From contig CM049308.1 of the NCBI GenBank assembly GCA_026874595.1, positions 79,778,124 through 79,842,123 on the forward strand: a stretch of 64,000 nt of DNA, in the 5' to 3' direction. The notes beneath the pieces are model-generated. The model had not been told where the DNA came from, searched no databases, and saw only the letters and a list, made by a program, of their open reading frames with translations. The position numbers were made by a program, and so were the translations under genes. This DNA is from Sipunculus nudus. Its lineage: Eukaryota; Annelida; Sipuncula; Golfingiida; Sipunculidae. Positions 19,145-64,000 of the stretch are shown in pieces (position 1 is the first letter of the stretch; each line of letters opens with the position of its first letter).

Positions 19145-21105
19145 CTAACCTAGCTGGAGGACTGCGTGTACGTGTGGACCGTCTATGAGCAACATCGTAC
19201 TTTCTTCAGTATCGTCATCATCTGTACATTCTTGTGGTACGTATTCCGGCGGTAATCGATCAGCTATATCAATGTTATCACTTGACGATGCCCGAGGTTG
19301 CGTGTCGTACTGCTCATCTGACTGTGTTGATTCTGTCAGAGGTGATCGAAGCCTCTGATTTGTGGCCATGATGTACATTAGAAGTCTGTGACGTATATTT
19401 CCTTCAGTCAGCAAATAATGGTATTACTCTGCAAGGCTATTTGAATCAGATTCTGGCGGTATCTCTTCCAGATGTTGAATCTGGACATCAGGATCAATGA
19501 CGGGTTTTCGCAAAACTATTGACGTGACATCGCTCGGTTCGCCGTCTTCGTCTGTATCTGTATTGTCGGTGTCTAGTATTAGTGTTGCTGGTTTCCTTTT
19601 ATTTAGGTGGCCACTTGTAGCTTGTGTTTTTGGTGAGATTTCGAGTGGTAATGATCCAATCGGCAGTAGAAAATTTCGATGGAGGGTCCTGATTTGTACC
19701 TTGTAAACAGGTATATTTGTATTTCGTTGCTGAATGACTTTGTATGGCTCCTTTTCCCAGATATCATTCAGTTTTTTTTCCCAATATTTCCAAGCTTTCT
19801 GATTAAGACAAGGTCTCCTCTCTGAAGCACTGCTCCTCTGACTTTTCAGTTGTGCAGATCTCGTCTGGTTTTGTTCGTTTTTCGCGTGTTCTCTTGTGCC
19901 ATTCTATAAGCGTCCGATAATTTGGATTGTAGGGAAGACACATACTGACTGTGATTACTTGAAAGCTCTTCTTCACTGTCCAGTCCAAACAGTACATCAA
20001 CTGCCAGCCTTGGCTGTCGCCCATACATTAAGGAAAATAGTGAAAATTTTGTGGTTTCATTCCGGGTGCAGTTGTAGGCGTGCACCACTGCGGTTAAGTA
20101 ATCTTTCCAGTTATTCTTCTTTTCTTCAGCCAAGTTTGCTAGCATAGTGAGTAAATTACAGTTAAATCCTTCACATATTCCGTGTCCTTGGGGATGGTAG
20201 GGGTTCATTCTAGATTTTTGCATGCCTGTCAGTTCACATTGTTCTGATATCACTTGACTTTCAAAGTTTCTTCCTTGGTCTGAATGGAGACGATATGGTA
20301 GACCATAGTGGTTGAAGAATATATCCACCAAAGCTTTAGCAGTAGTCTTTGCAGACTGGTTTCGACAGGGTGTAGCTCGTGCATATTTTGTGAAATGATC
20401 GATTACAACGAGGATATTCTCTATTCCTCCCTTTGAGGGATGCGTTGTCATCACTTTTACGAATGGGGCTACTTGGTTGTCGGGAGTCTTTCTCCTTACA
20501 CAACTGGGACAGGATGATACATATTTTGCGATATCTCTCGTCATCCTTGGCCATAGAAATCGTTTTTGTATAAGGTCACAGTTCTATCTCTTCCAAACCC
20601 AAATGCCCTATCTCATCATGCATACTTTTAGCACCATATCTATGAGGCTCTGAGAGGGTAACAATTGTTCTTTGGATATTCCGGCAACCGTCCGTTTTCG
20701 GACTTCTGGACTTAGTGATTCGCCAGTTGCTAGCCGTCCTGACCTCACGTAATTAGCGACAGTTGATATGTGGGGATCCGTTTCCCGGGCCTCCCTGATC
20801 TGTTCTGTGGTTAACACGGTCAGTGAATCTGAAAGAATACTTTCGTCTGGAATACTTTTGGGATCTCAGACCAGACTGTTGACATATCCAGTCATTGACT
20901 GATTACACAATGCATCAATTGTGTTTTTGGTGATTATTTCAGTATCTGCAGGGTCTCGACGTTTCAAGTGAGATAGAGCATCTGCATCTTTGTTCTCTCT
21001 TCCGGATCGATACACTATATAAAACTGGAAATCTGACAGTTCCGCAACCCATCTATGTTCTGTGGCGTCCCGTCGAGCAGATGTTATTACATATTTCATG
21101 TTCAA
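19145..21105 (-). mobile_element. Ty3/gypsy-type pol remnant (RNase H tail, integrase, C-terminal tail)
   Basis: On the minus strand, 21105-20866 carries the RNase H end (VAELSDFQFYIVYRSG then DADALSH). 20817-20608 looks like the linker to the integrase zinc finger. 20544-19846 is a long integrase core: CPSCVRRK, VVIDHFTKYARA, a DQG-containing stretch LHSDQGRNFE and NPYHPQGHGICEGFN, giving a recognisable D,D,E triad. 19414-19145 may be the acidic C-terminal tail. Frameshifts separate the pieces. Reverse transcriptase, protease and gag are absent, so it cannot move on its own. It belongs with the LTR at 18208-18805. Confidence 0.8.
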
Positions 21106-38884: not shown

Positions 38885-40140
38885 CTGTAAAAAATTATTA
38901 ATAATACACAGCTGTGTTCAAGATCAGCCTAAGTGGGTGAATAACAAACCGGATATAACAGCTTTTCTTGTTTTGCTCCAAGTTTGAATTGATTTGTGAA
39001 GCAGTGGAACAGACTTCCCTCAGAATTAAATTACCCAGGGTACCATTTTATTTTCAATAACTCGTGTAATGAAATAATGGTGCAACGGCTAAGTATAATA
39101 CCTTATTAATGATTTCTTTCCAACTGCACAAGTGTCGAGGCTCATCACACCCGTCATGTTCTATCAAGTCATGAAAATCGCCGTACTTTGGCACCTTTGT
39201 TCCAATTCTTGAAGCTAGTCTTCTTTGCAAATCTTTCAACCATTCTTGATCCAAATGTGGCAACTGAATAACTGAAAGTACGAAAAATATATAATAAATA
39301 CTGATAATAATAATTATTATTATTAATGGTATAGCCGTGTCAGTCTGTAGATGTGTTAGTCTGTCATACACTGTGTGTTAATAAACAGTTAATCTATCGA
39401 AAAAGCGTCACTCTTTCTCTCTATACCCTCACTATATATATATATATTGGAGATATATGTAAATTTGTAAAGCTTGTAGTTCTTATACTTTATTTTGAAA
39501 TGTAAAACAGCAAGAAAAGAAGCTGTATTTAGAGAACCTTAATCTACCTGGCTCAAAAATTCCTTCTTCGGAGTCGGAGATGTTACTCTTAATCGTTCGA
39601 GTCTTCTCTGGACACATATCCTGAATAATGGAAAGAGAGAAATTTTATCAAGCTTTCTCAGTGTCAGGATCAACAGAAATGCGAAGATGTGACCTGTTGT
39701 TTAATCATATGACACTAAGATAGGTGTATAAGTTTCATAAAAGTATATATCTGTACTAACCTGATCCTTCTTCAGATCCGTCAGTGTGTACATCTGTTCA
39801 GAAGATAAAATTAAACCGACGAACCTGGCAAGGGCTATTTTTGAATTCATCAGTGTCCTAAGTATGTTCGCAGTATCTTCATCTCCTAACCGCAGGTCCT
39901 ATCAAAAAACAAAAAAACATTTGAAATCTTAATCCATTAAAACAAAAAATGGACTTTTAATAAATGTTCTTTCATTCGGCGTCCTATAGGGCTGCGAGAG
40001 ACGATAAAATGTTTAATATCAAATATTAGAATTAATAACAATAACTCAGAAACTGCCTGATATATGCTTTGAGAAAAATGTTGGACGGGTGAAACTTTCG
40101 TGTGTGTCGGTATATATATACATATACATATATATAGACA

Positions 40141-40177
<37 letters not shown>

Positions 40178-43100
40178 TGATTTATCACTATTAAACATTG
40201 CTAATGTTATGAAAGGAAAATTTTGAATAATCAAAGGATGATATAGGGGAAAATGTAACCTGTTTGTCGGATATTTTCTTCCCGTCGATGCTGAAGATTT
40301 GTGCGATTTGTTCACAGAGAGGTTCAGTCAGTACTATATCATCAGCACGGCGTTGTATTAATGTACTTGTTAGACGGGAGACATCAGTACCATGTAAACC
40401 TGTTCTTGTCCAAATATTTATGATCACTGAAAAAAGAAATGACACATTACTGACTTGGTTTACTTACTGATCCTTTGCCTGTCACATTTATTTTAGATTT
40501 CGGACAATTTCGAGTACTCATTAGATTTCCATTGTTGGTAACAATATCGTTCAACAACGGATATGTTCAACAAAATCTTCGTGGAGCTAACTTGTTCCAA
40601 GGGGGTCTATACATTCATATAGATTTATAACAAATAACAAACCCGATTCTATGAAAGTTTTCAGTCGTAATGGAAAAGAGATTTCATATAGGTATAGGCA
40701 ACTTACGGGATCGTTCGAGAAAAGAACGCAAATAATAGCCGCCAGAAAAGTCGATGGCATCAAGAAAAAGGTAAAAATCACTAGCAGGTCTGTGCATCAT
40801 ATGTTTATGCAACCACTCTGCGCAGTGAGCTGCCGGAAGACACTTCTGCAAAAAATGTATAATATTAAGAATATATAATGAGAAAATGAGTATATATGAG
40901 GATAAAAGTTAAATGCAATGTTGTTATTGTAAAGATGGAGAAAATAAGTTACTGAAGTGTTTTATAAAGAATACCTGAAATGTTCTCCTTTCTATGCATA
41001 CATTACATGATTCAAACAGTTTGCACTACAAGTATACACGATGAGGACAATGCTGTGTTGCTATTTCATATTATATACACTGCCGTTGACTGTTTCAAAT
41101 AATATTTTTTTAAACTTTAAAATTTAAAAGATTTAAATAACCTGGCATTGATATTACTGACTAGATATTCATGTTGTCGGTTTGTGATCACGTTTCTTGA
41201 AAACAAAAAGTCAAACAGGCCAGCTCCATAAATATTCTGTATCCCACAGCAAATACGATGTTTGTTGCTCTCCCAAAGATCCTGATAAATATCACGTGAC
41301 AAGAAAATTACATCTTGTTCAGGGGTATCTGAAAAAAAAAATAGCATAACAATGTGAAATAATTAATAATATAACATTCTCAAAATTTTGATAATTTGGA
41401 TGAATGTGTGTGAAAGATAGAGAAAGGGGAATTAAAAAATAAACTACGTTACCGTCACGAATGTACTCTTCCAGATGCTTCTGATTTGTCATGGATAATA
41501 TGTAATAAAATTTTGGCAAGTTTTTGACAGGATCTTCAAAAAGAATTCTATCAAGTAACCATTCTACTTGTAGGTGTATCGGATTAGTTTTCTGAAATAT
41601 ATAGATACACGCAATTTTACTCTGTTATATTTAACTTGTCCATATCTAGTTTTCAATTGATTTAATGGAACGTACAGTTTTATATCTACTATACACATGT
41701 AATTTTTTATCATTATAATCCAGTTTCACTTATGCTGGCTAACTATAACAGCACACCTCCATGAAATTACACTATGCAGATGTTGAGTATTCTCTACGCA
41801 GAAGATATGAAGGTATATATATATATATATAAGAGTGTGTCACGTTTCTTCATAGTTTAAGCCATTAAGCCCGTCTAATGTTCTGAAATATTCCCGAGAG
41901 TTGCTCAAAATATAAACGTAAAAGTTTTCTGTGGCAGGAGGTTTTCTGTTACATTTTACAAAATTTAGGGTATTCAGAAATCACAAAATGCTTCAAACAA
42001 ACACGATTTACAATATATAAATGTAAGAAGACACATCAAACGCATAAAGCGAAATGTGGCGGATGTAGAGTTTTACATATTTTTTCTCCTTTGTGTTTGA
42101 TGTACAATCTATGTATATCATGTTACTTTATTACGTTATTATTTTAATAAAACGGAACATTACAATTAGTCAGTACACAGAGCCGCATTATTGAAATAAA
42201 GCTTTCGTCCAACGTCATTGAAAAGATTTAATTCAGATGTGTTTCATTAAAAGCACCTGTATATTAACTTCATGCTTTGTCACAATTTCGAGGTCCAGCA
42301 AGTAGTCCCACATATATGTGTGCTCTACATCCATATGGCGAATCAAAAAGTCCCGTTTAGAATGAAAATTCGGGACAATCTGAGCTATTTCTTCAAGAGG
42401 CATAAAAGTCAGAGGTGGCATATGCATCTCTAAAAAAATATTACACAAAAATATTAGAATATTACGAATAAAATTGAACTTCCTGCCAGGAAGAACATCT
42501 TGAACATCAAGCTTGAGTAATATTTAAAATTAGAAGTGTTATCAAACGGAAATTGCTGAAGTAAAGCAAATAAAATAATTTAAACATACCAAACAGCTGT
42601 CAAGAATTGGACGGACTGTGTGTATATACAAGGTACGATAAACGATACGATACAATTTCTTAAGCAACCGTAAAAATCTAAGGGTCGAAAATTATAGCCA
42701 AGGCTTACCTGTTGGGTGCATGAGCTGAACGATGTGACTCTGAGAAGTACGCTCTAATGCTGTCCAGACGTCCAAGATTTCCTTATTGTGACGATCTTCC
42801 ATTTGATCTAATAACCATCCCACCTGTTCGTAATTTGGTTTAGTTTTCTGAAGAGATACAAGCAAACAAAGTGACAACTGTTAAAACATAAATCATAAAG
42901 ATTTTCATGATTAAACGTTCTTATTTCATGGGAAAGGTGTGTGAGACCAAACCTTTATGTCACTTAATTGTGCAACAGTCCAAGTTCCTACAAAAAAAAT
43001 CTCAAAATACGTATATTTTCTCTTTAATCAGCATTGTTCCCTGCTATAATTCTTCAACATCAATTTCATAACTCTTAAACCGGCCCCATAAAGTGACAAC

Positions 43101-43436
43101 TATTAATACATAAATAATAAAGAGTTTCATAATTAAAGGGGGGGGGGTGGTTAGTGAGACCAAACCTTATGTCACTCAATTGTACAACAATCAAAAATTA
43201 ATAGAAACAAAAACAGCCCAATAAAAAGGATCATTTGTACATTTTAAAAGAATCTTAAAAGAATCAATTATAAACCAGTGTTTATTTGTTTAAAATCTTA
43301 ACAAAACATATGTGGGTGCAAAATTTGAAATCGCTTGCTCTAACGGTTACAAAAATATCGCACTAATGGAAGGGGCAGATACATTCTAAATGGTATAGCT
43401 CCGTTGGTGTCAACTGGACTAAAAAGATTATTTGTA

Positions 43437-43488
<52 letters not shown>

Positions 43489-43648
43489 GCATACCTGCAG
43501 CTGACACTGGTCCAATGTGACAATGTTGTTGGACACCAGATATCCCCAGAATAAGCTTGAGTTACATTCCATATTCATCATGAGTATCACTCGTTTATTC
43601 TTAAGAGAGGCATAATCACCTGTTTGCCGAAATGCAATCGGAATCATC
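36557..43648 (-). CDS. CARD(x4)-NACHT-LRR NLR-like cytosolic sensor, 11 exons, about 1261 aa
   Basis: Exons on the minus strand: 43648-43495, 42847-42709, 42429-42257, 41591-41453, 41328-41162, 40845-40707, 40426-40260, 39898-39761, 39620-39548, 39271-39102 and 38884-36557 (stop TAG). All introns are GT-AG, and the phases join to an uninterrupted 1262-codon frame from ATG 43647. Residues 1-405 form four two-exon death-fold modules of CARD type. Then come an acidic linker (406-429), a pre-NACHT segment (430-486), NACHT (P-loop GQNGTGKT near 499-506, Walker B LFILDDID near 579-586, VTSR near 612) and a leucine-rich C terminus from about residue 930. NLRs of this layout use NACHT for ATP-driven oligomerisation and CARDs to recruit signalling partners (family knowledge). 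The first listed exon has its own acceptor, so an upstream, probably untranslated, exon is likely. A decayed paralogue lies at 1987-7708. Confidence 0.88.
39761..43648 (-). CDS. CARD-like module cassette of the NLR gene (four exon pairs)
   Basis: Each module is one longer exon (154, 173, 167, 167 bases) followed by one of 139, 139, 139 or 138 bases. Phase is 0 inside each pair and 1 between pairs; the last pair ends in phase 0. First exons end alike (LDQCQLQ, KHEVNIQ, NRQHEYL, GKKISDKQ). Three of the second exons resemble the CARD pattern 'W-L...P...F...L..T.Q..L...L' (WLLDQMEDRHNKEIL...ALERTSQSHIVQLM is the clearest). For the third module the in-frame donor is GTCAGT at 41161; the later GT at 41141 would break the frame. 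The regular lengths indicate tandem duplication of an exon pair, followed by strong divergence. Confidence 0.8.
43439..43486. repeat. (AG)n microsatellite next to an NLR exon
   Basis: A GA run of about 46 bases lies 9 bases beyond the donor of the first CARD exon; on the coding strand it is a CT tract just inside intron 1. Confidence 0.95.
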
Positions 43649-43649
43649 C

Positions 43650-46600
43650 TAAAATTAAGAAATAAAAGAAAACACAGATCTAATTTCCAATCCCTGATCT
43701 GTTGTTTCATCAATTTACCTTACCATAGCTTTTGTCCTGTATAAAAGAAATACCTGTGACAAATATGCTTGGAGTTAGGCTAAATAATCTGGCAGTTCTT
43801 TCATTTTAATACCGTTAATTCGAAATGATAAATGAAAACTAAAGCGTTACCGTTGATATGATTATACCTGTTATCCTTGTTTAACAGCACTCAGTAAAAA
43901 TACAAGGAAATTCAAATATTTGAAAGGTCGTTTGTGTTCCCGAACTTCAAATAAAGTACAGTAAACTGGGGAAACTTAGAGGGGCGACAGCGAATCTGCA
44001 CTATATGAATGAAAACATTTGGTTAACTAATTGCCACCGCATTCAGGGTACAGAACCCCGCTGGCCAAGAGGGTAGGGTTCTGTTACACAGACACACGGT
44101 GGCACTTCCGCAAGCCCCAGTGGGCAACACAGAGGATATCGGAGTGCTCCACACAGAGGATTCATGTATGATTGTCAAAGTTCATTTGCCCCTACAGATC
44201 TTGTCCCTGGATGGAATGATAAAAAGAAGCAAGGGTAGCTTGTGTATCAGCCGATTTTTTGGTCCCGTCATTACATCTACATAATTTCAGGTCGATAGAA
44301 AATGAATTTGCCAAGAATTTTTGCAGCCGACTTTTCCTGCCAGATTTTTTTAAAAATCCGACCGTACCGATCGACCGGAAAAATCGGAAGGTCGGCTTTT
44401 TAGTCTACGATTTCCGGACGCCTTTCCACAAAGTAGACACATTAACATGGGTTCACATCTACTGATTTTTATTTTATTATTTTTTTTTTCTTTTTTGCCT
44501 GCTGATTATAAATCTGCAAGTAAAGTTAAAGTTTTGCTGCACACATATCGAATATGCCTGCAGAAGAATTTCCCAGGCCTTTTTGGTTTCGTCTGCAGGA
44601 TTACTATTGTCGACGAAAATGATAAATGAAGGAAAGGTGAGGGAAATATCTGGATTTTTCTGGCCGGATATCCTTGACATTGTCAAAAATATTTGTAGCC
44701 GATCTTTCAGGCCGAATTTAAAAAAAAAAAAGTCGGAGCGGTAAACCCTCGCATCTACCGATCCTATCAATTTTATGGTCGATTTGAAAAAGGTTATAAA
44801 AAAGTTATATAAAGGTTATAAAAAGGCAGGAAAAATTGGAAGCCGGCTTTGGCGCATCATTGAGATTGATTATAAGAGTCCAACAAGTACTAGCCTACGT
44901 AGTTAGTCACTCTGTGAGGCTTAAAAGCACTCTCCACAAAATATTTGTGTGCGAGTGAGGACACAGATTTTTAGATAAATCATATAATTAGCTTAAAATA
45001 AAAATACGTGGGTCTTTAGCTGGGTTTGTGAACCATTCATAATAAGTTAAAAAAAATTGCAGCTAGCAACAAGCCCTGCTTGGAGCCATAATTTTCTGTT
45101 TTAGTCACTAGATGACACTATTTTACCGACCTGGCAGTAAATCTTATGCTTGGATTTGATGAATGAGCCTGAAACCTAACAGCCAATTAGAAGAAGGACT
45201 TAGAAAACTGATTATACCTACGACCTTGACCCTAAAGCAACATGTCATGTCTGGTTAGAAACTTGCTAGCATCGCTTCCTAACGTTGGATGATATGTGAT
45301 AATATACCTTGTTAATATGTTTTATTTTTTTACTTGAGCAAGAAAACAGGTGAGGTGTCGTTGTTAAGGCTATGTCGCCAAAGGAGGGACATTGAAATAA
45401 AATCAGACATGCACTACTAGAATGCATGCAGCGCTCTCCGCGTCTAAACAAGTACATAAAAATACAGCTGGAATATATAAGCAAGTCATCCACTAGGTTA
45501 CTAGGAATTTAGAAATAAACAAGGGGCATTATCTCATCAGTGATCATTAAAAATCGTGTTGTAAAAGATTAATCTAGATGTATGTTTCCTGAGTTTTCTG
45601 TGAACCTGACAGCGACAACGAAACCACCATAAGCACAACAGAGCTGCAACAATGTGCACATATAACATATTATTTAAAAAAAACAAGTGCAAAAATATAA
45701 CTAATGATATGGATTTATACATATAAACTATATATATTCAACATTTGCCGGGGACTGAGATCTAAATCTCGAAATATCATGTGACAGACCGTGGTCTTAA
45801 TCAGGACCGAGAGGTTTTAACTCGCTTACCTGCCCCACTTAATACTGACAATAACAAACCAGCTTTTCAGGGTCCAAAGTCTAGTTTTGTATATGTAGCG
45901 CTCGATCTATCCAACCCACTTTTTACAATTACGACTGACACAGAAGATTATGTTACGCCGACCTCAAAATCAAACATCCTGGGCAACATCTTCCTTTAAA
46001 ATACTGATGTCGCCCGGGTACCAGGATGCAAATTCAACAATCTTCACCTTTGACCTCACGCTAGTATCTGCATAATTATTAACAAATGTTCCCCTTCCCA
46101 ACAGGGGAGATTGATCAGCAAATCAATCCACGGCACTGTATGTGTACACGAGCTGCCGCTGTGTATCTTTTTATACCTCCAAACGTTTGGATCTACTTGT
46201 TTTCACGGAGTTCAGACACTCCTGCCATTTGTTTGATCACAATCCTTAACTGCTCATGATTCATTTAAATTTAGCTCGCTGGATGGAAGTTGAGGAGAGC
46301 TTATACCGTACATCCAGCATCCTATGCGTCAGCGGTGGCGTCGGCGTCGTCTGTAGACAAGCCAGATTAAAGTTTTTTTTAACTCTTTAGCAACCATTTA
46401 CCCCATTGTTTTCATATTTCATATATGTATTGTATGGAAGGTTGGTTAGGAACCCCATATGATTTGGGGTCAGACGGTGAAAGTTCAAGGTCAAAATGCA
46501 CAGTTGTTCATGAAGAAGTCAGTTTATAGTTTTTTTTTTTTTTTGGTTTTTTTTTTAAGATTCATTGCTCCATTGCCAATGAAGATATTTCAATTTAACT

Positions 46601-50084: not shown

Positions 50085-51240
50085 TCATAGACTGCTTTCT
50101 TTAAAAAGTCCCGCGAGGGCTTCATCAGTCGGTTTCCCCTGAAATACAAAATGTGCATTTACTATACACCGCTTGAAGGTGATCTCTAAAATTATGGCTG
50201 TTGATTTCCGTATACAAGAAGTAGGATTATTTTTATATGAATCCGTGTTTATAAAGATTACTTCGTTATAGGTGCATGATCCGGATAAAATTACGGGGAT
50301 TATGTGTTCTCCTTTTTATTATTCAACATATGCAGAAATAAAGGTAAAAATTACTTTTCTCATCTGTTTGGGCCCAAATAAATCTGTGTTGTCATTCGTC
50401 TGACCCGACCTGCAAGGAAGACACGCACGGACCCATCGTAATAGACCGTTGTTATTGACTTCTTCAGGCCTCGTTATCTGCATGTGAAGGAATGGACGTG
50501 TAGATTTTTAGAATATAACGACATTATGCATATATTCATTCAATGTTTTTAAAATGTATTCTGATAACATTTCACCTATCAGTTGCCTACATATAATGTT
50601 TTAAATGGCTCAGTGCCTCATTTCAAATATATCCCGATATACGTAGAAGCGTAAAGCTACAAAGACGGGGTATACTTTTCTTATATAAATCTGATTTTTC
50701 TTAAATGAAGGACCAACTATGAACAAATATACGACCCTTTACTTGCAAATTTACATTGATAAAAAAACTTGTTGGTCCCGAAAAAGGGGCTAGAAGAATT
50801 AAAATATCCGAATTTTAACCTTACAAAACAGTTATATTAGCTAATAGCTGTCCTACAGGACCGTGCTTTCATTGATAAAAAGAGTGTTATAAAGTTTTGC
50901 CCGCCGCAAATAAATGGGAAGGGTGACACCCATTCTGGATCCGCTTCTATAAACATGCTGTACTGACCTTTTCCAACACTTTTATGATATATCGTCCACA
51001 CACACACAGGAAGGCTATCATTGCGAAGATTGCTGACATCCACACAGCAAGGTGAATGCTGATCGGCATCTTGAAATCTATTGCAGGAAAAGATGGGATT
51101 ATTTTCATTATTTTTTACAAACCATTATTTACCCTATATCGACAAGATTTACCCTATATCAAGCCATGCGCACTATACTAATATATTCTCATTATGTCAC
51201 AAATGACTACATATCATATGGCTACTAATTATAATGGGTA

Positions 51241-51293
<53 letters not shown>

Positions 51294-54200
51294 GTACATA
51301 AATACACAGTTAAGTCGGTACACTGCCGAAGTGTATCGAACCCATGACCTTCCGATTGCCGGTCGTTTGCTCTAGCCAATGTGCTACAACAGATCCCAGA
51401 CCCAACTGTGTATAAATATTATATATATATATATATGTATAAAACTGTAAAAAGTGCAGTTCGTTTATGTTCCAAAATAATTATTACATCCGTCAAATAA
51501 AAGCATATTTTGGGAATCACATTTATGTTGTAAACATGTGTCATAAATAACAATACATTTATGCGCAACTATTGAAACACAGTCTGAGACATAGCTAACA
51601 CTCCAACATTGTCACTTCATTCAAAGTAAAGTATTTAAAGTAAATACGTAGGCGGATCCAGAGGGGGGCACAAGGGGATGGTGCCCCTCTTTAGTGTTCG
51701 TAATTTAATAAAAAAATTGGCTTTTTTAGCAGTCTTGCATACTTCATACGGCCTTTCATATATATTTCAGCATGGATGTTACCAGAGTTTTTAAACTAAA
51801 AAATATACATACAATGTATAGCAAACATGTTACCAGAGTTACTCCTTATCTCAAGCTGACCTCCTTCCTAATCTATCACAGTAACCCCCCTATTTCTTTT
51901 AAAGGACCCCACAAATACAACTGACTGGAAACGTCCTTCGTCAATGGACGGTTAGACTTCAATCTGCATTATCCTATACCTTTCCAAATGGAAATGCTCT
52001 CTTCCCCATAGATATACTATTTATAACTATTGCGTTTACATAAATTTCTACATATTTAAATTTAATCACTCCCATGGCCTGATAAAATAAAACGAAAATA
52101 AGGTATACGTTATGGTCAGTTTACATGCATATACACATTATAATTTACTTCTAGAAATATTCTGGAAACATTGCCATTTTTTATATAATGTGGCTAGTTA
52201 TACATATTTCGACAAGGCAAAATTCCTACATTGAAAGGGCAAATTCTTTCATGGCTGCTTGTTTGGATAGTTCATGAATAAGCTGAATACATGAAGAGGT
52301 GAATGTACATGTTGGAAGAAATATTTGCGTGAACGAAAGTTTGCCAAGAAGAATACTTGCAGAGTTTCAGCATTGTCATACTACCAAATCTGTGGTAAAG
52401 CCGTGAAAAGCGCAGTTGACTTGGTAGAATGAAGATGAAATTCAGCAATTTAGCAGTTTGTTGGATCCGTACTAGGTTTGTACATATTTGCTTTAAGGAA
52501 TGAAAATGGTATAGATTTTATGAGACTTTGGTCGGATTTGGCTTCAAAATGGAGAGGATATTGAAAAGATGAATATCTGAGGGGCAGGGGTGAAACCCAT
52601 TAATGAAATTATTATATATTTAATCAATAAACGAAATGTTGTCAAACAGATGTTTCACTTTCATTTTCGTGTTGCTCTATTGATAATCTCCCTGTTCTAT
52701 ATTTTATACAACAGCAACTTTCCCTGCCTCTTTGCTTCAAGAATATAGAAGTGTTTAAATGTGTAAATTTTATTTGTACTATGAATGAAGATTTACTGAC
52801 TGTGATTTAAATTGTGTTTGGTGTTCATATTTGTCAAACATAGTCATCGTCATTGTTAGATAATTATGATATAAAAGGAACCTCATGTAGATTGAGGTAA
52901 TAATATGTTTAACAGTTTTACAATTAATTTTTATAATTTTAAAGTTTCAGGGATTCATATCTATCGCCATATTTATGAAAACAAAGCTGGGTTATATTTA
53001 TAGCATTTCTATTTGTAGGATCTCAATATCAATACGTGCCATATATGAAATTTTAACTGTGCTGTTAAGGAAGACATAGTGAGTTTCATCAAAGTAATTT
53101 TGAAATCATTAATTTAAGATTTAAATTATATTGAAGTTTTAAAACCCATTTATCGCTGATTTTCCCTTACAAATGCCACTAATTAAGGTCACATTTTTAT
53201 GGCTTTATTATATTTGTATGAAACATTCGACGCTCCTTTTTAATAGAGAGGTTGAGCGAATTACGTAAAATCATGTGCCCTTGTGGCAGTTGTGCCCCCT
53301 CTACAGCAAAATCCAGGATCCGCCACTCAAATATTTTCCCCTTCCTGCTTAATATTTAGCTGCTATAACTTTTAAATCATCTTATGAGAATGGTATTACG
53401 GAATGGACATAAAGACCAGCCCGAATAAAGGCAATGTAAACAATTATGACATTAAAGTTGAAATAGTAGGAAAGAAAAAATCTTTTCCCTTCAGATAATT
53501 GCAAATCTTTTCTCACCTGCACTTTTTACCACTTTAGGCTGTTCATCTAGAGTGTACTCTTGAATCGTGGTTTGTATAACAGTTGATGTCATACCTGGTG
53601 ATGTTTGCACTTCGAAGAAATACATTTATATGCCATGAAATGAAAGTTCTCTCTATGAGTTGCATGAAGAGTGAACGAACCCCCCCCCCCCCCCCAACCA
53701 CAAACAAACAAAAACAAATAAGAAAAAGATATTTAACCTGAATAAATTCGGGTTAAATATCAATGTATGACTGTGAACACTAGAGAAGTCATGGTCATTG
53801 CAATGTTTTAATGAAACTGCAGCAATCATGAAAGTCACGGTATGAAACAGAATCAATTTCAGTTTATATTTTGTAGTAAGCTTGTATACATAATTACTAT
53901 ATTGTCATGGCAGTAGGAATTTACACATGATAGACATTCAATATATCACGAGAATAATGTACACGTGAATAGCTACCTGGTACACAAAGAACTGGATGTT
54001 GTGCATCGCAAGAAACCGCCTTCCAATGAAAGCTGTTCGCGGTTCTTTTGATAATGGAGCAGTTACCTTCTTCACTCGGCTCGCCTCCAGCCCAGTACAC
54101 ACTTGTCATATTTGACGTAACTGAAAGTATATATACGTCTCGTTATGATTACATTCACAGAATCATCAATTAATCACATTAATTACATAAATATATATAT

Positions 54201-57200
54201 TCATAACTTGAGAAATGTTTTTCACACTTTGCTTTAACAATTTTCAGTATCTTAGCATCTTCTCTTTACCATTACTCACATACCCACAATGGCTTTTGCT
54301 CATGGTTTCCTTTTATGTTTTGTCAAATCAACACGTAATTGAATATATAGATTGACTATAATGTTGCTCTTGTCGACAAAAAATAATATTTTCAAGTATG
54401 AAGTTATGTTTTTAACATCTACTGGTAATGCAATTTAAAACAGCTTCAGTAAAAAAAATAACAATGAAAAACATATACCTGAATTTTTGTAAAACCATTC
54501 TTGTTTCCGGAGACCAACCCAGTAATGCTGGCAACTTTTTCTAAAATAATCTTCAAAATCATTTTTCTTAGGTTCTGACACATGTTTTGGGAACCAATCA
54601 TTTTTTAAAATGGCCATTTCATATCCTTGAGATCTACAGTGGGCTTTTCCTGCCTCCCACGAAAATGATGCACAGGCGCTGATAAAACATCTATCCTGAA
54701 TCTTATCGCATCGAGTATGATGAGGCTGGTTGCATACCGTGCAGTCTGGAGTATAAAGAATACACTTATCAACGCTAAGTGAAACCAAAGTTATAAGACA
54801 CAGGTTTTGTCCAAGAAATCCAGGAAAACCATTGCGACTTTATTTTGCATTTTAATAAAATATCTGAAATTCGCTAAAATATTTTAAAATCAAAGTATAA
54901 TCAACCAGTACAAGTGACCCATATGTCCATATAAAAAAAAACATGTTGAGCACATTCTCAGCTTTTTGAATGTGTACATGTCAAGGGTCCCTGACCAGTA
55001 GTTCGTAAAATAAATTCAGGAAAAACTGAAACAATGTTTCCCATGCTCAGGAGACAGTTCTGAGACCATATTACACCGAATCTGGAAAAATAATTCCAAA
55101 ATTATATTTGTTTAAGGCACACCCCTAAAATTATATTTTGCCGGGATTTTGTTAGGTGTTGAATAATGGCTATTGCAACTTCCTGTCAATCCTGTGCATC
55201 CTGAATTCAAGATGCTGCATGTATACAAAAAATATTAATATTCGGGAAATTCTTCTCCACCATGAGAATTTCCCGAAGTCCATGATACAGCTTCCACTGC
55301 CACTCCAACGCTTTTCATTTGGAAATCTCTATAGTTCGAGGTGAAACCCTTGTAAGAAACCCCTCAGTAACAATTATATGTTATATTTTGTAAAAGATGA
55401 ACAAACAAACATTTATGAAACAAGCGGATAAAAAATTGTCGAAGGAAAGTAATTCATGTTTTTATCTGCTTTTAAGCCGTTTACCTGGAACTTGGCAGAT
55501 AACACCCTTATTAGTGAACGAACATGGCGACACCTCCAGCTGGTCATCTCGAACATTTAGGTTAACACACCGGGATATGTCACCCCAGTCTTGTGCAAGA
55601 AAAATTTCAGCTGAAAGAATATAATATTTATCAGATAATATAAATATCATAAATATAGTTACGGGTAAAGTTAAGACATAATTTTGCACCGTTTGGACTG
55701 TGCAATATGTCTTTCACTAGAATTTGATTCCCCAAATATATTTATATTGTTCTTACTTTCTGGTTACAGGAGTATGAAACACTTTCAAGTACTTTCATTC
55801 TTTATTTGCCATATATATAACAATTAAATGTAATAACATAATTATATGTGGGTATATTGAAATTGCATTATTCTTGATCCTTTTCTATTTGCTTTTTTTA
55901 ACATTTGTGTATGTATATTGATACTATAATTAATTGGCAACATACATATTAACAAAATTATGACGCATGACTGTTTATGGCCAAACAGATAACCTAGTCA
56001 TGGTGTCCCTTAATTTCAAAGCTACCACTCATAAACATTATTTTACATGTGCAGTGTTTTTGAAAGTTGCATGCTACGCACTCACGTGGTTTAGTACAAT
56101 CGAGCCAAAGGTATTCAGGAAGAAATCTCCTTTGAAGGCCAAGCCATGCAGATTCTAATTTTAGGGTTTGCATCAGTTTAGTGACGTAAGTATAATCATA
56201 TTTGTTGTTAATTACGGGTACTCTGTGTCCGTTTAGGAGGCTGCACATATCCATAGCCTGGTACCACGATGCACACGGAAACGAACGGCTACGCCCATCT
56301 GCCTTTTCTGGATGAAATAATGTATTATTATTGTAAGTTAACCAAAGGAGTATTTTGGTAAGAAAATGAAATTTACATGTAAGTTTAAAGGCATCATATA
56401 ATTAAACCAGAAAGAAAAGGGAAAAAAGTATATTGCACTTTTAATAGAAAGAGATGTAATTAAAAGAATGATGTGATTTTACCAGTAGAGTAAATTTTAC
56501 AAGAAAGATGTACTTTACAAAAAATATTGTAATATTGTTGTGTTACCAAATATTTACACACGAAAAGAAACAATTTACAATATTTAATAGAAATGTTTCT
56601 AAGATGTAAATTTAAGGAAAAAGAAGAAATAACAAAGTCACTGGACACAAATCTGCCTGTTTTGGTGGAGGGTGGCTTAATAGGTAATGGTCAATGCCAT
56701 TTGTTTAGAAACTCTACGAGAACTATAGCGACGATTTACAAATAGTGATACGGTGGAACCTGTCTTAAAGGCCATTTGCCTAATACGACCATTTGTCTAT
56801 TAACAGCACCCTTGAGTGAGCCAAAGCATTCACATTGGTTAAAACTGAACTTTAAAAAAAAACCACCTGTGAATTGAGACCACTTTTAGCAAGTCCCATG
56901 GACATGCGGTGTTATTACAAAGGCTTCATTATAATTTCTACTGAACGTTGCAGAATTGCTCTACTCCTCAGCACAATGTCTAAACAGTACAGAGCTTTGT
57001 ATCACCAGATGATTTAAATTTGGTTCTTTCGTCCTCAGCTGTTGGATAATGCCACGGATTTGCCAAAAGTTGAAAACTCTCAAACTTTTGCGTACATACA
57101 AATGGGATAAAACATGTTTGTGATGGTCTAATCTTCTTGGGACACAGTACACTCTAAATCTCATTCATGAACCCGTCAAAAAGAAACGAAGTAAACGAAG

Positions 57201-57324
57201 TTCCGAGTGGACAGGTCTGTGTAGAGGAGAAAAATATGAATGAATACTCACTGAGGCAATGATGAGTATGGAAGACTCCCAAGATTACCAGTAGCCATGG
57301 TGATGTAAAATACATAATAATCAT
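50085..57324 (-). CDS. Two-domain C-type-lectin-like type I membrane receptor, 8 exons, 357 aa
   Basis: Minus-strand exons: 57324-57252 (signal peptide), 56307-56086 and 55610-55485 (lectin-like domain 1), 54745-54479 and 54120-53977 (domain 2), 53594-53517 (Thr/Ser/Val stalk), 51077-50968 (membrane segment) and 50138-50085 (tail, TGA). All junctions are GT-AG and keep frame (phase 1 throughout, 0 after the membrane exon). The signal peptide MIIMYFTSPWLLVILGVFHT is clear; ATG 57324 is the first in frame. Fold markers are WLGLQRR and YWVGLRK, with paired cysteines. The sugar-binding EPN is EPS here (GEPSEEGNC) and the WND-type motif is HWKAVSC, so classical calcium-dependent mannose binding is doubtful. 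The tail is about 20 residues with no obvious tyrosine signalling motif. It mirrors the lectin-NACHT gene head to head with it. Confidence 0.86.
50968..51077 (-). CDS. Transmembrane exon of the short-tailed lectin receptor
   Basis: In frame it encodes ISIHLAVWMSAIFAMIAFLC followed by VCGRYIIKVLEK: a hydrophobic span of about 22 residues and then basic residues, which places the C terminus in the cytosol. It starts in phase 1 and ends in phase 0 exactly like the plus-strand exon 61034-61116. Confidence 0.85.
51229..51412 (-). repeat. tRNA-derived SINE with (TA)n tail in a lectin-gene intron
   Basis: On the minus strand 'TGTAGCACATTGGCTAGAGC' resembles a pol III A box, and 'AAGGTCATGGGTTCGATAC' a B box about 40 bases on. 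A TA tail ends the copy at 51242-51290. It does not fold into an intact tRNA. It lies immediately downstream of the stalk/membrane-exon region, in the same sense as the host gene. Confidence 0.55.
51649..53327. mobile_element. hAT-like non-autonomous transposon in a lectin-gene intron
   Basis: It begins GGCGGATCCAGAGGGGGGCA and ends ...TGTGCCCCCTCTACAGCAAA ... GGATCCGCCACT, so the ends are inverted copies around GGCGGATCC and GGGGGCAC. Ends of the type AGTGGCGGATCC are common among hAT elements. The interior is AT-rich with no transposase frame. It accounts for most of the intron between the stalk and membrane exons. Confidence 0.62.
53480..54745 (-). CDS. Lectin-like domain 2 and stalk exons of the short-tailed receptor
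   Basis: Exons 54745-54479, 54120-53977 and 53594-53517 read DCTVCNQPHHTRCDK... CFISACASFSWEAGKAHC ... YWVGLRKQEWF, then SVYWAGGEPSEEGNC ... VLCVPG, then the stalk. The order (C-F, hydrophobic core, YWVGL, W-GGEP, C-C end) is that of a long-form C-type lectin-like fold with an extra N-terminal cysteine hairpin. The plus-strand homologue has DCADC, YWIGLRREEW and WGAGEPSDRGDC at the same places. Confidence 0.85.
56750..56945. mobile_element. Small MITE-like element in intron 1 of the lectin gene
   Basis: The left part 'GGTGGAACCTGTCTTAAAGG' resembles the pogo-type end at 3331, and the right end 'TTTCTACTG' could be its inverse. The inverted repeat is imperfect and the target duplication is unclear. 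Confidence 0.35.
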
Positions 57325-58127: not shown

Positions 58128-59872
58128 ATGTCAAATATCGCCGAATTGTTGACATTGGGACTGTACTATCTGCAAATAACAGGTTGAGAATTTTAAATGC
58201 ATTTCCTCTTGAATTCTGAACTTTGCTGGTTTGTAATTATTTGTATTGAATATGAAAGGTAACCTCGGTGAGTGCGTCCTGATTTAAGCTGTGTGAATTA
58301 TTTTTAATATGATTATTGTTTTGAATTATTTATTATAAATATTATTATTACTATTAGTAGCGGTAGTAGTAGTAGTAGTTGTAGTAATAGTAGTAAATGT
58401 AGTAGTAGCATATAGTTTATAGTAGTTTATATTGAATACATGTTTTCACTGGGTTTTTATTTGAAAAGGTTAATAGAATGTCCAATCATTCTAGTGTTAT
58501 CAGGTACAGAAACCTGCCTGCTAAAACAGACATGGTCAAATGCCGCCAAGTGCTGCCAAAGACGAGGCGACAATTCTTCTCTTCCTGAAATATCCAACGT
58601 GCATACCCTCCAGAAGGTTATTAATGATATGAGTGTGGCAAATAACAGTCGAAGTTGGATAAATTTGCGAAGAGAGACACTCACCGCTTGGACATGGCTT
58701 CATGGATTAAACAGTAAGTCCATATGAATATAACGAATATGCTTTGCGTTTAATATAATTTTACCTCACGAAATATAACAGTAACCGCTTTCGTTTTACT
58801 GTTAGTCGATTCCAATAAATTCACCCTGAAAATCAGCATATATTTATTTGACGTACTCATATACTAAACTAACAATCGCACTGTTCATTCACTTTAAGAT
58901 TATGGAATCCTGTATCAAAAAACCTTATAAGCTTCGTTCTTGATACTATTTTCGAAAGTATATATTTCAGCCATAGCACGTCATTGACGTCATTAGAAAA
59001 GACCTAGATATTTAAAGAATGATCCTGTTTAAGGAAATGATAAATAATACAATATGCTACACAGGTCTACTTTCAGTAGGATATATAGTTCCCTAATGTG
59101 ATATCAAGCATTGTTTTTATTTAAAATATACGTTTTTACACATAAGTCATTACTCTTCAACGTGACAGGTAGCCTGTTAGATCGAAGCGAGGCTGGTTGC
59201 GCCGCAGTGCACAAGGTTGACAATGTGACAGCTAAAAATTGTTCCACATTATTTGGCCAAGTTTGTCAAGTAAGAGGTAAGATTAACTAATACTGCCTGC
59301 AGCTATTATATATTATTTTAATATATGATAATATCTGCAACAGCAACAATAATACATTCTGTATGAACTTCTGTTTTGAAGATTGTGCAGACTGTTCAAG
59401 CCTTGGTCATTTTTCGATGGCATGTCACGCCGTCGTTGACAACTGCTTCGTGTATTTCTGTGAGGACCTGAACTGGCAAGGGTCACGTAGACTCTGTCTG
59501 AACTATGGCTGGGACCTTGCTGCCACAAGTGATCATAACGTACTTGACATCATGCAGGTCAAATCACCGTGCCAGACGTATTGGATAGGACTAAGGAGGG
59601 AAGAATGGATTATGGGGAAATCAATCCCAGGTTTGTGTAAACCCTAAAACCCCTAACGGTAAATAACTAACTATATATCACATGCGTATTATCTGCTACT
59701 ACGTTAATGGAGCTGGTCTTGTGATGTGTGGCAAGGGTGGTTTACAATCACGTTTCAAAGGAGTAGTAATTTTGAAAAATGAATTTGATCAGGTACATGT
59801 AACACTAGGTAAAAAATATATACAGTAGTTAAAATATCATACTAATACAGGCTGTGTAAACACATACACACA

Positions 59873-59934
<62 letters not shown>

Positions 59935-62900
59935 TGTTATAGAATATTTACATAAGCGTGTTAAATGATATCAGCTCATTTACAAACATCATTACAACAC
60001 AAAAAACTTGGATGAAATATACTATCCAGGCCCTGGAAGCATTCAATCAGTGTCGTTGTGGGGTGCTGGGGAGCCTTCAGATAGAGGGGACTGTGCCGTC
60101 GTGTACCGAGACGAAGACGATATGAATTTGCAAGTAGAGGACTGTCAAAAGGAGCACGACTTCATTTGTATCAAGCAAGATCAAGGTTATGTCCGGTTCT
60201 GAAAATAAGAAGTATATTATAGTTCCATAGGACAATAGAGCCAAAGTATTCATTATAAAAGACCTACATTAATACAGTTTTAATCTTATATTGAAATTCA
60301 CTATCTCCGCATAATTATACAGCGGAATATTTTAGTTGTCATCTAAACATTCCTGAATTGGCAACTAAGTAGTGTTCATTTTTTTCATGGGAAGAATTGA
60401 CGTATAGGGTGAAATAAAGCGGCACTTAGATGTCTGCACGAGTATATATTAGAGATATGTATGATACTCTTTAGCTACAAGTTTTTGCTATTTTGTACAG
60501 AACCAGATGGCTCATATATATGCTGGTGATTCGGTTTAATCGATCAATTTATTGGATCGCATCATCATTTATAAAAAGAACAAAATCAAATATCTTCCTC
60601 AAGCATTCGTTTTGATTTACATTTTCAGTGTTTACGACCCCGAGTAATGTTAATGGCCGGCAATCAACTGTTAGTCCACAAGGACAAAGAGATGGTATGC
60701 TTAAATCTATTTACTTATAATATTGACATTATATGTGAAAAAGATGTATTACTGCAAAAATTTACACACAACACACACACCCGTTTTTGTTAAGTCACAT
60801 TTACCAATCGAAATTTCCTCTTTAGTGCATTGAATTTCAAACTAGGATATTTGAAAGGGCAAAGTAATGTAAACTGGACAAGCATGAAGAGAGAGCTATG
60901 TATTTAAATGTTCAGGGACTAGTTTTTTTTATCAACACCGGGACACGATGATAATCAGTCGATCTGAACAAATTAAAATATGACTTTTGTGTGTTCGCGT
61001 TTATTATTATGGATTGTTGAACTTTTTTTTCAGTTTACCTTGTGGCAATCCTTGCACCGATTGCTATTGTACTATTTATCGTCGCAGTAAGCATCATTGT
61101 ATTCAAAGTATACAAGGTTAGTTTACTTTATAAACACAAAAAATTTTATGTATATGTCCCCGCTATTAAATGATTTCCCGGAACGACTGTATATATACAT
61201 TAACACACAGCCTCCTTTATTATCACAATGCGTATAAAATTGCATAAAAATTCAGCCTGCTTTTGCTAACATAAACCGCCACCTAGATAACCACACGCAT
61301 CTACGAATAAAGGATAAAGATTCAGGTTGAGATTTTAGTTGATTATTTCCAAATTTCCTGTAAATCGGACTAAATGATGCAATACAAAATATGCAGCAGA
61401 GACAGACGACCGGATCCTGTTACTTTGCGAGTATAGCCCGAGACCATCTCAAAACCTTATACCTTGAACGTCACAGGGGTTTTGTTTATTATTTACGATA
61501 ATAAGGTTAATTGTTGACATTTACATCATTTGTCCCCTAAATGACGAATGATTAAGATGGGTGGCATTAAATATACTTTAGCGAACAGGGTTATGGTTCA
61601 AGCTGCTCTTAACATTAAATATTCTAAACCAAATATAAATCCTACTTTAATTTGCGGTTAAAAAAAGCATTATTCCGCTCTAAAGTCCATTTGCCACCAG
61701 ACTCTCTCCGCAGATAGAATGCCGCCTGATCGCTCTCCTCAGACTGTCGCATCCCCGTGCCCAAATCAAAGCCCTACAGTTTCTCGAAATCGCTCATGGG
61801 GGCTGCCGTTTTGTTTACACACAAAAAAAAACTTTTTTCACAGGTCACATGTCGAAACTATGGGTGTAATAGAAATAATAGAACATTTCAATGTACCACA
61901 TTTGCACATATTCATATATGGCCTTAAGATGATGCGAAATTGTAATGTCCTTTGAAGCGATTTTCTTGGTATTGGCACATTACAAGCGGCACTTTTCTAC
62001 CGCTAAAAAACTGAAAGAAAATATAGTATCCTATAACCACGGATAGTATATATAGTTAATCAGAACATTTTTAGTCGATGTTAGACTATTAACAAACGTT
62101 ACTAAGCCAGGGAATGGGCGTAAAGAAGCCAAGGAATGAGCGTTATCATAGTTCCGAGAGCTCATTCAGTTCTTGACCTTGGGTTAAAAATATATTTTTC
62201 ATTGAATGTTATCATAAAATAATAGGTTTCGAATACAACAAGGGCGTATATACTATATAAAGCCGTTAACTGTGACACGTTCCATCATATTCAAAGAACT
62301 GAATGCTGCCACAAAAAAAATTTTTGCATGTCTCCCTGCATTTTATAAAGAGGTGGTTGCCCGAATTATATTCCTATATCAGTTCTGTATATAAAAAGTC
62401 ATAATTTGCAGAAAAGGGTCATGATTCAACAAGAAGAGGATCAGCCAGAATCAATGCCATTAAAAAGAACAGACTCGGGTAAGATATACAGAGAAATATG
62501 AATTTACCTAATTTATAATCACGGTATAATGGTTATTACATGATGGCATACATGTAGCGTTACCTGTAATTACTAGATGGGTACGATTTGTACAATTTTC
62601 TATGACTGTTGAACAATTGCGAATGATCAGAACAATCATATTATTTAAATTTCTTGTAGGTAACTTGCCGGATTTTCAGCAGACGCTCGCCTCAAAGCTG
62701 CTAAGAATGAACAAGAAAATAGATATATGGTCTTTTGAAGAAGATAATATTTGGGTGGCGATAGATGACATATACACAGATGTACAGTGGACGAGACAAG
62801 GGGATTCTGTTAAGGCTGAAAAATACATAGGAATGTTTGACAAGGTGAGTGGGCTGATTTATACCCTGTGGACCACTATATGCTTTGTTACACTTTGAAT

Positions 62901-64000
62901 TAGAAAAAAAAACATCATGCAGAGTATTATTTAAATATTAAACATTAATTTAGCCTTGTTTCAATTCTCAGAAACTACATATTCTGATGCTCACAGTATA
63001 TGTTTGTGTCAAAAAGACGTTTTATGGGATTGTTTTATTTTGTTGTAACAGAAAACGACAAATCAAATAAGGTACTTAATTTGCAACACAACATTATATG
63101 TTATGAAGTTACATTGAACATTAATAGTTGTAAAAGAAAATTATTCTATTTTTTATCTAGTTTATCATCTTTTGTTTCGTTTTAAGCTCAGCTGACTGTA
63201 AGTCTTTTAACTTGACATCCATTTGGCTGAGCGTCATGACCCATGGGTCACTTGTTTCAGGATACAGACAACCTTCGTCCTGAAGGAATCATCGTGTTTG
63301 GAGACGCAGGGAGTGGGAAGACAACCCTCACGAAGAGGATCGCCGTGGACTGGAGCAGAGTAGTCATGGCACAAACGGAAGAGAATGCGATAGAAATACA
63401 CCCGCGGGTAAAGTCCTGCCTGAGCGAGTTCAAATATGTTATACCGCTTTCCTTGAGGGACATTAAAAAAGGTCAGTGCTTCAAGGATATTATGCGTACA
63501 CAGCTGTCAATTAACAGTAATACTGCAGATAACCTGTTTGCTGATTTGGAAACAGTTCCAGAAGACTGTGTTTTAATCTTAGATGGGTATGATGAATTTA
63601 TAGAGGAGAGATCATCGGATATTGTAAATATTGTTCAGGGGAAATTCCTTGCGGGGGTTAATATTATGGTAACTAGTAGGCCATTTGTTGTGAAATCGTC
63701 AAAACTAAAAGACCGGAAATGGGATGTGACAGTTCATCTACATGGTCTCTCTCCAAAGAGCAGAGACGAATACATTGACAGGTTTGCTAGATGTCAGTGT
63801 ATTGAACTAGACAGTGCCAAAGAATTGAAGGAAACTGTCAATAGTGTTGATGATCTTTCTGAAATGAGTCAATGTCCGGCAATTTTGCTGCTTATATGTT
63901 CGCTGTGGCACAAAAGCAAAAATGTGGGTCACACATATACCTCATTTTACAAAGGATTTGTAAAATACATGTGTCTTAGATACTGGAAAAAATATTTCCC
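58128..64000 (+). CDS. Lectin-transmembrane-NACHT receptor, partial (3' end outside the window)
   Basis: Exons: 58128-58182 (signal peptide MSNIAELLTLGLYYLQITG), 58504-58713 and 59169-59276 (lectin-like domain 1), 59382-59630 and 60030-60185 (domain 2), 60629-60694 (Ser/Thr stalk), 61034-61116 (membrane span), 62412-62478 (cytosolic linker), 62660-62844 (pre-NACHT) and 63261-64000+ (NACHT). Every junction is GT-AG and in phase (1,1,1,1,1,1,0,1,0), giving 393 residues before NACHT and about 640 to the window edge. NACHT has P-loop GDAGSGKTT (407-415), Walker B LILDGYDE (498-505) and TSRP (531-534). The ectodomain faces outward and the NTPase the cytosol. NLR-family NACHT proteins are normally soluble, so the fusion is unusual. 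Signalling by ligand-driven clustering of NACHT is an inference. EPS replaces EPN in domain 2. Confidence 0.83.
58504..60185 (+). CDS. Two C-type-lectin-like domains of the lectin-NACHT receptor
   Basis: Domain 1 (residues about 20-124) carries SRSWINLRRETLTAWTWLHG and ends CSTLFGQVCQVR. It is diverged and lacks a clear calcium site. Domain 2 (about 125-260) carries CHAVVDNCFVYFCEDLNWQG, YWIGLRREEW, SLWGAGEPSDRGDC and DCQKEHDFICIK. Each domain is split by one intron at the same place as in the minus-strand lectin gene. In domain 2 the EPN site reads EPS and the WND site reads QVED, so standard sugar binding is uncertain; protein or lipid ligands are possible. Confidence 0.85.
59876..59930. 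repeat. (AT)n microsatellite in an intron of the lectin-NACHT gene
   Basis: A TA run of about 52 bases lies between the two exons of lectin-like domain 2. Confidence 0.95.
61034..61116 (+). CDS. Transmembrane exon of the lectin-NACHT receptor
   Basis: It encodes VYLVAILAPIAIVLFIVAVS followed by IIVFKVYK: a strongly hydrophobic span of about 23 residues flanked by lysines on the C-terminal side. It enters in phase 1 and leaves in phase 0. The next supported exon (62412, KRVMIQQEEDQPESMPLKR) starts in phase 0 with more basic and acidic residues, as expected for a cytosolic juxtamembrane region. Confidence 0.88.
62412..62844 (+). CDS. Cytosolic linker and pre-NACHT exons of the lectin-NACHT receptor
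   Basis: 62412-62478 ends with one base (G) that completes GGT with the first two bases of 62660. 62660-62844 then reads NLPDFQQTLASKLLRMNKKI ... WVAIDDIYTDVQW ... and leaves in phase 0 at GTGAGT. The IDDIYTDVQ-type segment just before NACHT is typical of animal NACHT proteins, and the phase-0 intron before NACHT is shared with the CARD-NLR at 38885-39101. Confidence 0.83.
63186..63254 (+). repeat. Minimal family A copy at the NACHT splice acceptor
   Basis: Only the two ends of family A remain: AGCTCAGCTGACTGTAAGTC at the left, and GGCTGAGCGTCATGACCCAT then GGGTCACTTGTT at the right. The element ends directly before the 'TCAG' of the acceptor, so its terminal pyrimidines form part of the splice signal of the exon starting at 63261. 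Confidence 0.7.
63261..64000 (+). CDS. NACHT domain exon (runs off the window)
   Basis: Open from the acceptor CTTGTTTCAG to the last base. It shows IIVFGDAGSGKTTLTKRIAV, YVIPLSLRDI, VLILDGYDE, MVTSRPF and CPAILLLICSLW in the order of a NACHT NTPase (P-loop, effector strand, Walker B with DGYDE, sensor TSRP, helical part). All catalytic motifs are intact. The type differs from the CARD-NLR (GQNGTGKT, LFILDDID), so it is not a recent copy of that gene's NACHT. Whether LRRs or another module follow cannot be seen. Confidence 0.92.

Follow-up and report, generated by a model that had tools for sequence, protein, structure and literature searches.

Does the right-hand part of this locus of Sipunculus nudus hold one gene, in which C-type-lectin-like domains (CTLDs) are joined through a membrane span to a NACHT NTPase, or two adjacent genes, a surface receptor and an NLR? 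NLRs are usually described as cytosolic sensors, and an initial annotation of the DNA had proposed a single gene. We analysed the window (the whole stretch of 64,000 nucleotides, C3:79778124-79842123) and, for the paralog work, the genome of 1.43 Gb in 153 contigs. We consider it probable (about 0.73) that the gene in question, hereafter gene A, is one of a large family of type I membrane receptors with two CTLDs outside, one span, a basic-then-acidic linker and an intact NACHT-LRR inside.

Exon structure of gene A

Gene A lies on the forward strand. When its exons were rebuilt from the DNA, the reading frame came to 1203 amino acids, open and stop-free across ten exons, with junction phases of 1, 1, 1, 1, 1, 1, 0, 1 and 0. 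The ten exons that the initial annotation had joined in frame were all recovered exactly, their introns being GT-AG throughout (9/9), and the one-base carry-overs that it had described at the phase-1 junctions were present. Exon 1 (58128..58182) carries the proposed start and a putative signal peptide with a weak hydrophobic core. It is followed by two exons for CTLD1 (first half, 58504..58713; second half, 59169..59276), two for CTLD2 (first half, 59382..59630; second half, 60030..60185, with the motif WGAGEPSD), a stalk exon (exon 6, 60629..60694) and exon 7 (61034..61116), which encodes the membrane span and runs from phase 1 to phase 0. The two short exons on which the join between membrane and NACHT depends are indeed in phase: exon 8 (62412..62478, 67 bases, phase 0 to 1) encodes a basic/acidic linker and holds an ATG at 62421, and exon 9 (62660..62844, 185 bases, phase 1 to 0) encodes the pre-NACHT region. 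Exon 10 (63261..64000 and on) encodes the NACHT and then the LRR in a single open frame that extends 1.7 kb past the window end. Followed rightward, it stays open to a TAA at window-equivalent position 65693 (locus L009), and domain searches returned the Pfam families NACHT and Lectin_C and added the LRR region.

Domains and predicted topology of gene A

Pfam matched NACHT at 1.1e-16 and Lectin_C, in two stretches, at 1.5e-14, with CTLD1 giving 4e-8 when searched alone. LRR_14 (Pfam) was found at 2.1e-7 but with 30.4 bits, below the cut-off of 40; against PDB, the C-terminal LRR matched NLRC4 (chain 643-820, 1.1e-8) and the C-terminal part matched NLRP3 (4.7e-5). These vertebrate proteins, the nearest solved relatives by sequence, have the NACHT-LRR order in common with gene A; they are cytosolic, carry a CARD or PYD and have no ectodomain. 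Pfam searches at E up to 1 found no CARD, death or pyrin domain in gene A, nor an N-terminal CARD/PYD/death/BIR effector of the NLR type. The NACHT contains GDAGSGKTT, VLILDGYDE and HRTVQEF, which we take to be its functional motifs, Walker A and B included.

CTLD2 matched NKG2D (1.3e-7) as well as L-selectin and CLEC2D in PDB, so that NK-type CTLD receptors (NKG2D, CD94 and CLEC2D) are among its nearest solved relatives. Those are surface receptors, some encoded in genetically linked pairs, and they are type II proteins with one CTLD and no NACHT. The initial annotation had also spoken of a membrane lectin-NACHT protein; 'lectin' holds for the CTLD fold (Lectin_C) and fails for the sugar motifs, hence 'lectin-like': sugar-binding CTLDs carry EPN/QPD and WND, CTLD2 of gene A reads EPS at the EPN site, and CTLD1 has neither EPN/QPD nor WND. 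The EPS of CTLD2 suggests that its ligands are proteins or unusual glycans.

Along the annotated chain from signal peptide to NACHT, the CTLDs, span, linker and NACHT held, and the signal peptide turned out weaker than claimed: exon 1 has a poor hydrophobic core (best 10-residue mean 1.56), and a signal-peptide-exon scan that gene B (below) and several paralogs pass gave none for gene A, L026 and L030. Only one hydrophobic stretch of the protein has 19-residue means >1.6 (residues 278-312). With this span and the CTLDs in one frame, the predicted location is non-cytosolic, and we infer an orientation with the CTLDs outside and the NACHT inside.

Neighbouring genes

Head to head with gene A lies gene B, which is transcribed divergently on the reverse strand, the two start codons being 812 bases apart. 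Its product of 395 amino acids comprises a signal peptide (exon 1, 57252..57315), CTLD1 (exons 2 and 3, 56086..56307 and 55485..55610), CTLD2 (exons 4 and 5, 54479..54745 and 53977..54120), a stalk (exon 6, 53517..53594), a membrane span (exon 7, 50968..51077) and, after the membrane exon, 58 residues and a stop, shared between a cytoplasmic tail exon (exon 8, 50355..50477) and one with the tail end and stop codon (exon 9, 50085..50138). The ectodomains of A and B are 25% identical in the window. Behind gene B, on the same strand, lies gene C (approximately 36557..43650), a separate NLR of CARD-like repeat exons followed by a NACHT-LRR in one open frame (38917-36557), the CARD matches being below the Pfam curated cut-off; receptor and NLR parts thus occur apart at this locus. 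A fusion of gene B with gene C is unsupported, gene B having its own stop. The partner gene B, the size of the family, the ATG in exon 8 and the sea-cucumber Ig-TM-NACHT precedent all go beyond the initial annotation.

Paralogs of gene A across the genome

Because exon 8 holds an ATG and the two kinds of parts occur separately in genes B and C, we used paralogs to test one gene against two. The closest relative of the NACHT-LRR exon (C3p, 58% identity) lies on the contig of the window, some 112 kb further left, and has one TAA inside, while the others, elsewhere in the genome, show 24-43% identity. C3p was rejected as a clean test case, being decayed (stops in CTLD1 and in the NACHT-LRR) and having no convincing linker. 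Upstream sequence was taken for 14 of the 15 next-best NACHT-LRR paralog rows (C17:3299470 was left out), and CTLD exons preceded the paralogous NACHT on the same strand in 11 of the 14 stretches; no CTLD lay upstream in the stretches of L027, L028 and L029.

A genome search with a consensus CTLD2 exon gave 150 matches (the best 150 of 596 candidates), and one with a consensus pre-NACHT exon gave 132 (E up to 1; 150 were scored). For at least 46 of the 132 pre-NACHT matches, the 15 kb upstream include a CTLD2 in the same orientation, 1.2-9.4 kb away, and these loci span contigs C2, C3, C5, C6, C7, C12 and C17 (32/46 on C17). Among the matches listed, the CTLD2 of a CTLD2/pre-NACHT pair lay upstream on the same strand 48 times, downstream on the same strand 4 times, and on the opposite strand 6 times upstream and once downstream. 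A NACHT match within 8 kb downstream is among those listed for 25 of the 46 loci, the NACHT listing saying nothing either way about the other 21. Of 128 NACHT places, 40 are preceded on their own strand by a CTLD2 at most 12 kb away; the other arrangements account for 2, 5 and 0, again among the matches listed and with a few genes counted twice (the 128 places are 97 of 99 rows of one listing plus 31 of 69 paralog rows). Some paralog loci were chosen for compactness or clustering, and all counts for the family are to be read as minimum values.

In the search for exon chains, phases had to agree with one another and were otherwise free. This search covered 22 oriented loci including gene A, 20 of which were modelled (gene A and 19 paralogs); L033 and L042, with no CTLD2b anchor, remained unmodelled, and L023 and L031 were excluded (no exon 9 match; long gap). 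The membrane exon runs from phase 1 to 0 in 18 of the 20 modelled loci, and 17 of them, gene A included, also have a linker from phase 0 to 1 that joins a pre-NACHT exon in phase 1. Exceptions to the pattern of gene A are C3p, L034 and L036, the last two with other phases. Chains with a rival phase for the membrane exon score near the best ones at C3p (39.3 vs 40.3), L034 (43.1 vs 44.0) and L020 (44.5 vs 48.8), and the L021, L035 and L037 models seem imperfect; a stricter run gave 11 chains in 14 loci, 10 of them with the phases of gene A. When the membrane donor was fixed, all 18 loci showed a phase-1 acceptor at exon 9, L036 having no TM end by the pattern used in this linker analysis.

Linkers were found in 17 of these 18 loci, among them KRVMIQQEEDQPESMPLKRTDS (gene A), RRSTKKCKKEAFSEESIPLKSVPRTEELRLN (L020) and RKSRHEWRARQLEETSNAPLLDK (L037). 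For 11/17, no more than 5 of 100 shuffles reached the splice scores of the linker, and the remaining 6/17 did not exceed shuffled sequence at the 5% level. Three or more K/R among the first seven residues occur in 8/17 linkers (0.45 expected from shuffles), and such residues directly after the span are consistent with a stop-transfer signal. The motif PL, picked after the linkers had been viewed, is likewise present in 8/17 (0.34 expected). L040 and L041 are 91% alike and not independent, and when L040-L042 are aligned the proposed linker stretch stands little above background conservation. Eight of the 17 linkers lack Met, and three of these eight pass the shuffle test (L020, L037 and L040, the last doubtful), so that it is chiefly L020, L037 and the phase-1 acceptors that argue for a NACHT half lacking its own start. 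We regard the paralog data as good evidence that the CTLD-TM and NACHT parts belong to one gene, as had been proposed: the order CTLD-CTLD-TM-linker-NACHT, with a C-terminal LRR region, recurs on several contigs, the exon order being preserved and the phases for the most part unchanged.

Alternative readings of the locus

The ATG at 62421, in frame within a 67-base exon, makes a pair of adjacent genes a real rival: a CTLD-CTLD-TM receptor that ends after exon 7 and a cytosolic NLR that starts at this codon in exon 8. Such a split would also agree with an AATAAA about 190 bases after exon 7 (a hexamer common by chance in AT-rich DNA), with the example of gene B, which encodes CTLDs, a span and a short tail of its own, and with the Met present in 9/17 linkers. 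Against it stand the phase-0 donor of the membrane exon in 18/20 loci and the phase-1 acceptor of exon 9 in 18/18, together with the well-supported Met-less linkers of L020 and L037, the stop-transfer-like K/R with which many linkers start, and a distance of just 0.33-1.8 kb between the TM donor and the exon 9 acceptor across the 18 loci. On the paralog phases we rejected the two-gene arrangement as the main reading and retain it as a rival that is distinctly unlikely.

A single locus could also give two products, which would be compatible with gene A as a full-length receptor: alternative splicing or early polyadenylation would yield a short CTLD-TM receptor beside the full one. Read-through past the exon 7 donor does meet a stop after a short tail (ORF 61021-61173), and gene B represents the short form as a separate gene. 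Nothing positive was found for such products, however, and the tail exons of gene B match nothing else in a 149.6 kb stretch (E up to 0.5), so that tail exons of that kind do not lie in the introns of gene A; we hold two products to be possible but rather improbable. That the CTLD-NACHT fusion is a dead or mis-assembled hybrid might be suspected from the decayed copies nearby (the C3p pair and an inverted copy of gene C), but gene A is open over 1203 codons and ten exons and its layout recurs on seven contigs, which leaves very little room for this explanation.

Association of A-type and B-type genes

Seven of the 14 paralog stretches contain divergent B-type CTLD exons (C3p, L019, L022, L024, L025, L026 and L030), the copies at C3p and L026 carrying stops. 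The stretches of L020, L023 and L031 end too soon to judge, with L020 showing a CTLD match in the right orientation for a partner further out (C6:28220978), and that of L021 contains no B-type partner. A tree of CTLD2 sequences, 11 of A type and 7 of B type, places all those of B type in a single clade (support 0.98), and both of its halves separate {window, C3p, L019, L022} from {L024, L025, L030}. A Mantel test of A against B gave r 0.62 (45/5040 permutations) and, without the close C3p pair, r 0.40 (75/720). Among the matches listed for an A-tuned query, neighbours of the 46 loci were divergent in 6 cases and parallel in 2, too few to weigh. From these sequence comparisons the A/B pairing is likely to be old, and co-evolution of the two genes is suggested at most. 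Divergent head-to-head pairs are known from the plant NLR genes RPS4/RRS1, whose products are both cytosolic; genes A and B are likewise kept together, but there both members are NLRs, whereas gene B is a plain surface receptor.

Comparison with known membrane NACHT receptors

The closest precedent comes from the sea cucumber Apostichopus japonicus, in which AjNLRC4 is described as a membrane receptor with extracellular Ig and intracellular NACHT, reported to oligomerise and, through actin, to promote the uptake of Vibrio (PMC8699970). By its sequence, gene A would share with it the order of ectodomain, membrane span(s) and intracellular NACHT. AjNLRC4 has Ig, two predicted spans and no LRR, whereas gene A has CTLDs, one span and an LRR, and the accessible text on AjNLRC4 mentions no head-to-head partner such as gene B (PMC8699970). 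A second sea-cucumber protein, AjNLR-new, is also a membrane NACHT receptor, of opposite topology to that predicted for gene A, its NACHT being reported outside and its Ig inside (PMC13133943). Sea anemone NLRs with 3-5 N-terminal spans, against one in gene A (PMC5094078), and sponge NLRs with spans (PMC12909245) are similarly predicted at membranes, with no CTLD ectodomain described in the accessible parts of these reports.

Large NACHT repertoires occur in the pearl oyster (>200 genes, other molluscs typically having 5-20), where the NACHT partners given in the accessible text are HEPN, death, LRR, TPR and WD40, in contrast to the CTLD of gene A, and the word 'lectin' has 0 occurrences in the main text (PMC9646362); four NACHT proteins are reported for Aplysia (PMC9334734). 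No CTLD-TM-NACHT protein appears in the accessible text of PMC11797021, PMC8260672, PMC6321704, PMC8242945 and PMC8195603, and none was found in the passages of the open-access literature searched.

Proposed mechanism and significance

On our best reading, by analogy, the family would consist of surface immune receptors that work like AjNLRC4 (Ig-TM-NACHT), the differences being the LRRs and the lectin-like nature of the ectodomains. Once the CTLDs of gene A bind a ligand or cluster, they would bring NACHT domains together, and nucleotide exchange with ATP-driven opening of the NACHT-LRR could lead to an oligomer at the membrane. Since no effector domain was found in gene A, the signal probably leaves through a partner protein. 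One route would be for the NACHT of gene A to pair with that of a CARD-type NLR, for example the adjoining gene C, by analogy with NACHT-NACHT recruitment in NAIP/NLRC4; the other would be coupling to proteins of the cytoskeleton or of uptake, for which AjNLRC4 offers a reported example. Gene B probably supplies a second CTLD chain expressed with A, as a co-receptor, decoy or ligand. More tentatively, as an idea that we would not yet favour, A and B may form the two chains of one surface recognition system, held head to head through many duplications, with CTLDs that bind ligands or each other and with A carrying its own NLR engine, so that an encounter at the surface would lead to NACHT assembly and the receptor would need no separate adaptor for signalling.

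If the receptor layout is true, an NLR machine could be triggered directly from the cell surface, and at least 46 candidate loci in one genome, with NACHT-LRR behind a span and a recognition ectodomain, would represent another wiring of innate recognition, beside TLR-type adaptors and cytosolic NLRs. As the studied parallels found are two sea-cucumber membrane NACHT receptors, separate lineages may have arrived at similar solutions. The divergent partner gene B makes a two-chain receptor directly testable, and, should the two-chain reading hold, the dozens of diverse loci could be a surface repertoire for non-self recognition or allorecognition.

Gene C lies on the reverse strand of the window (approximately 36557-43650) and contains repeated exon pairs followed by an exon encoding a NACHT-LRR region. 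The exon pairs that precede this NACHT-LRR exon resemble tandem CARDs (Pfam CARD, 0.0079, 0.014 and 0.18; all under the cut-off). An inverted, decayed copy of the NACHT-LRR of gene C was found on the forward strand (window 5416-7560), with a piecewise identity of 45-55% and several internal stops. By eye, an ORF at window 2617-3120 (+) includes a stretch resembling the pre-NACHT exon of gene C, i.e. the exon ahead of its NACHT, and an open frame at window 19846-20583 (-) is similar to a retroelement integrase.

A paralog (58%) of gene A, the predicted receptor joining lectin-like domains to a NACHT-LRR region, is located left of the window (C3:79727014-79745030) and is accompanied by a divergent partner of the gene B type (a predicted lectin-like receptor with a short tail). 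Both members contain stops, forming a decayed A/B-type pair. The last ~90 residues of the gene A LRR region have a near copy on the same strand (L010:4276-4551, window-equivalent 72276), beside which the ORF list contained nothing of the rest of gene A.

Contig C17 carries very large NACHT and CTLD clusters and, among the matches listed, 32 of the 46 loci combining a CTLD with a pre-NACHT exon. The pre-NACHT exons of two C17 stretches (L040 and L043, at 3.63 and 4.02 Mb) agree at ~90% of positions across 215 bases, yet the remaining sequence compared shares short matches only, which suggests that ectodomain and NACHT halves have been recombined by shuffling or gene conversion.
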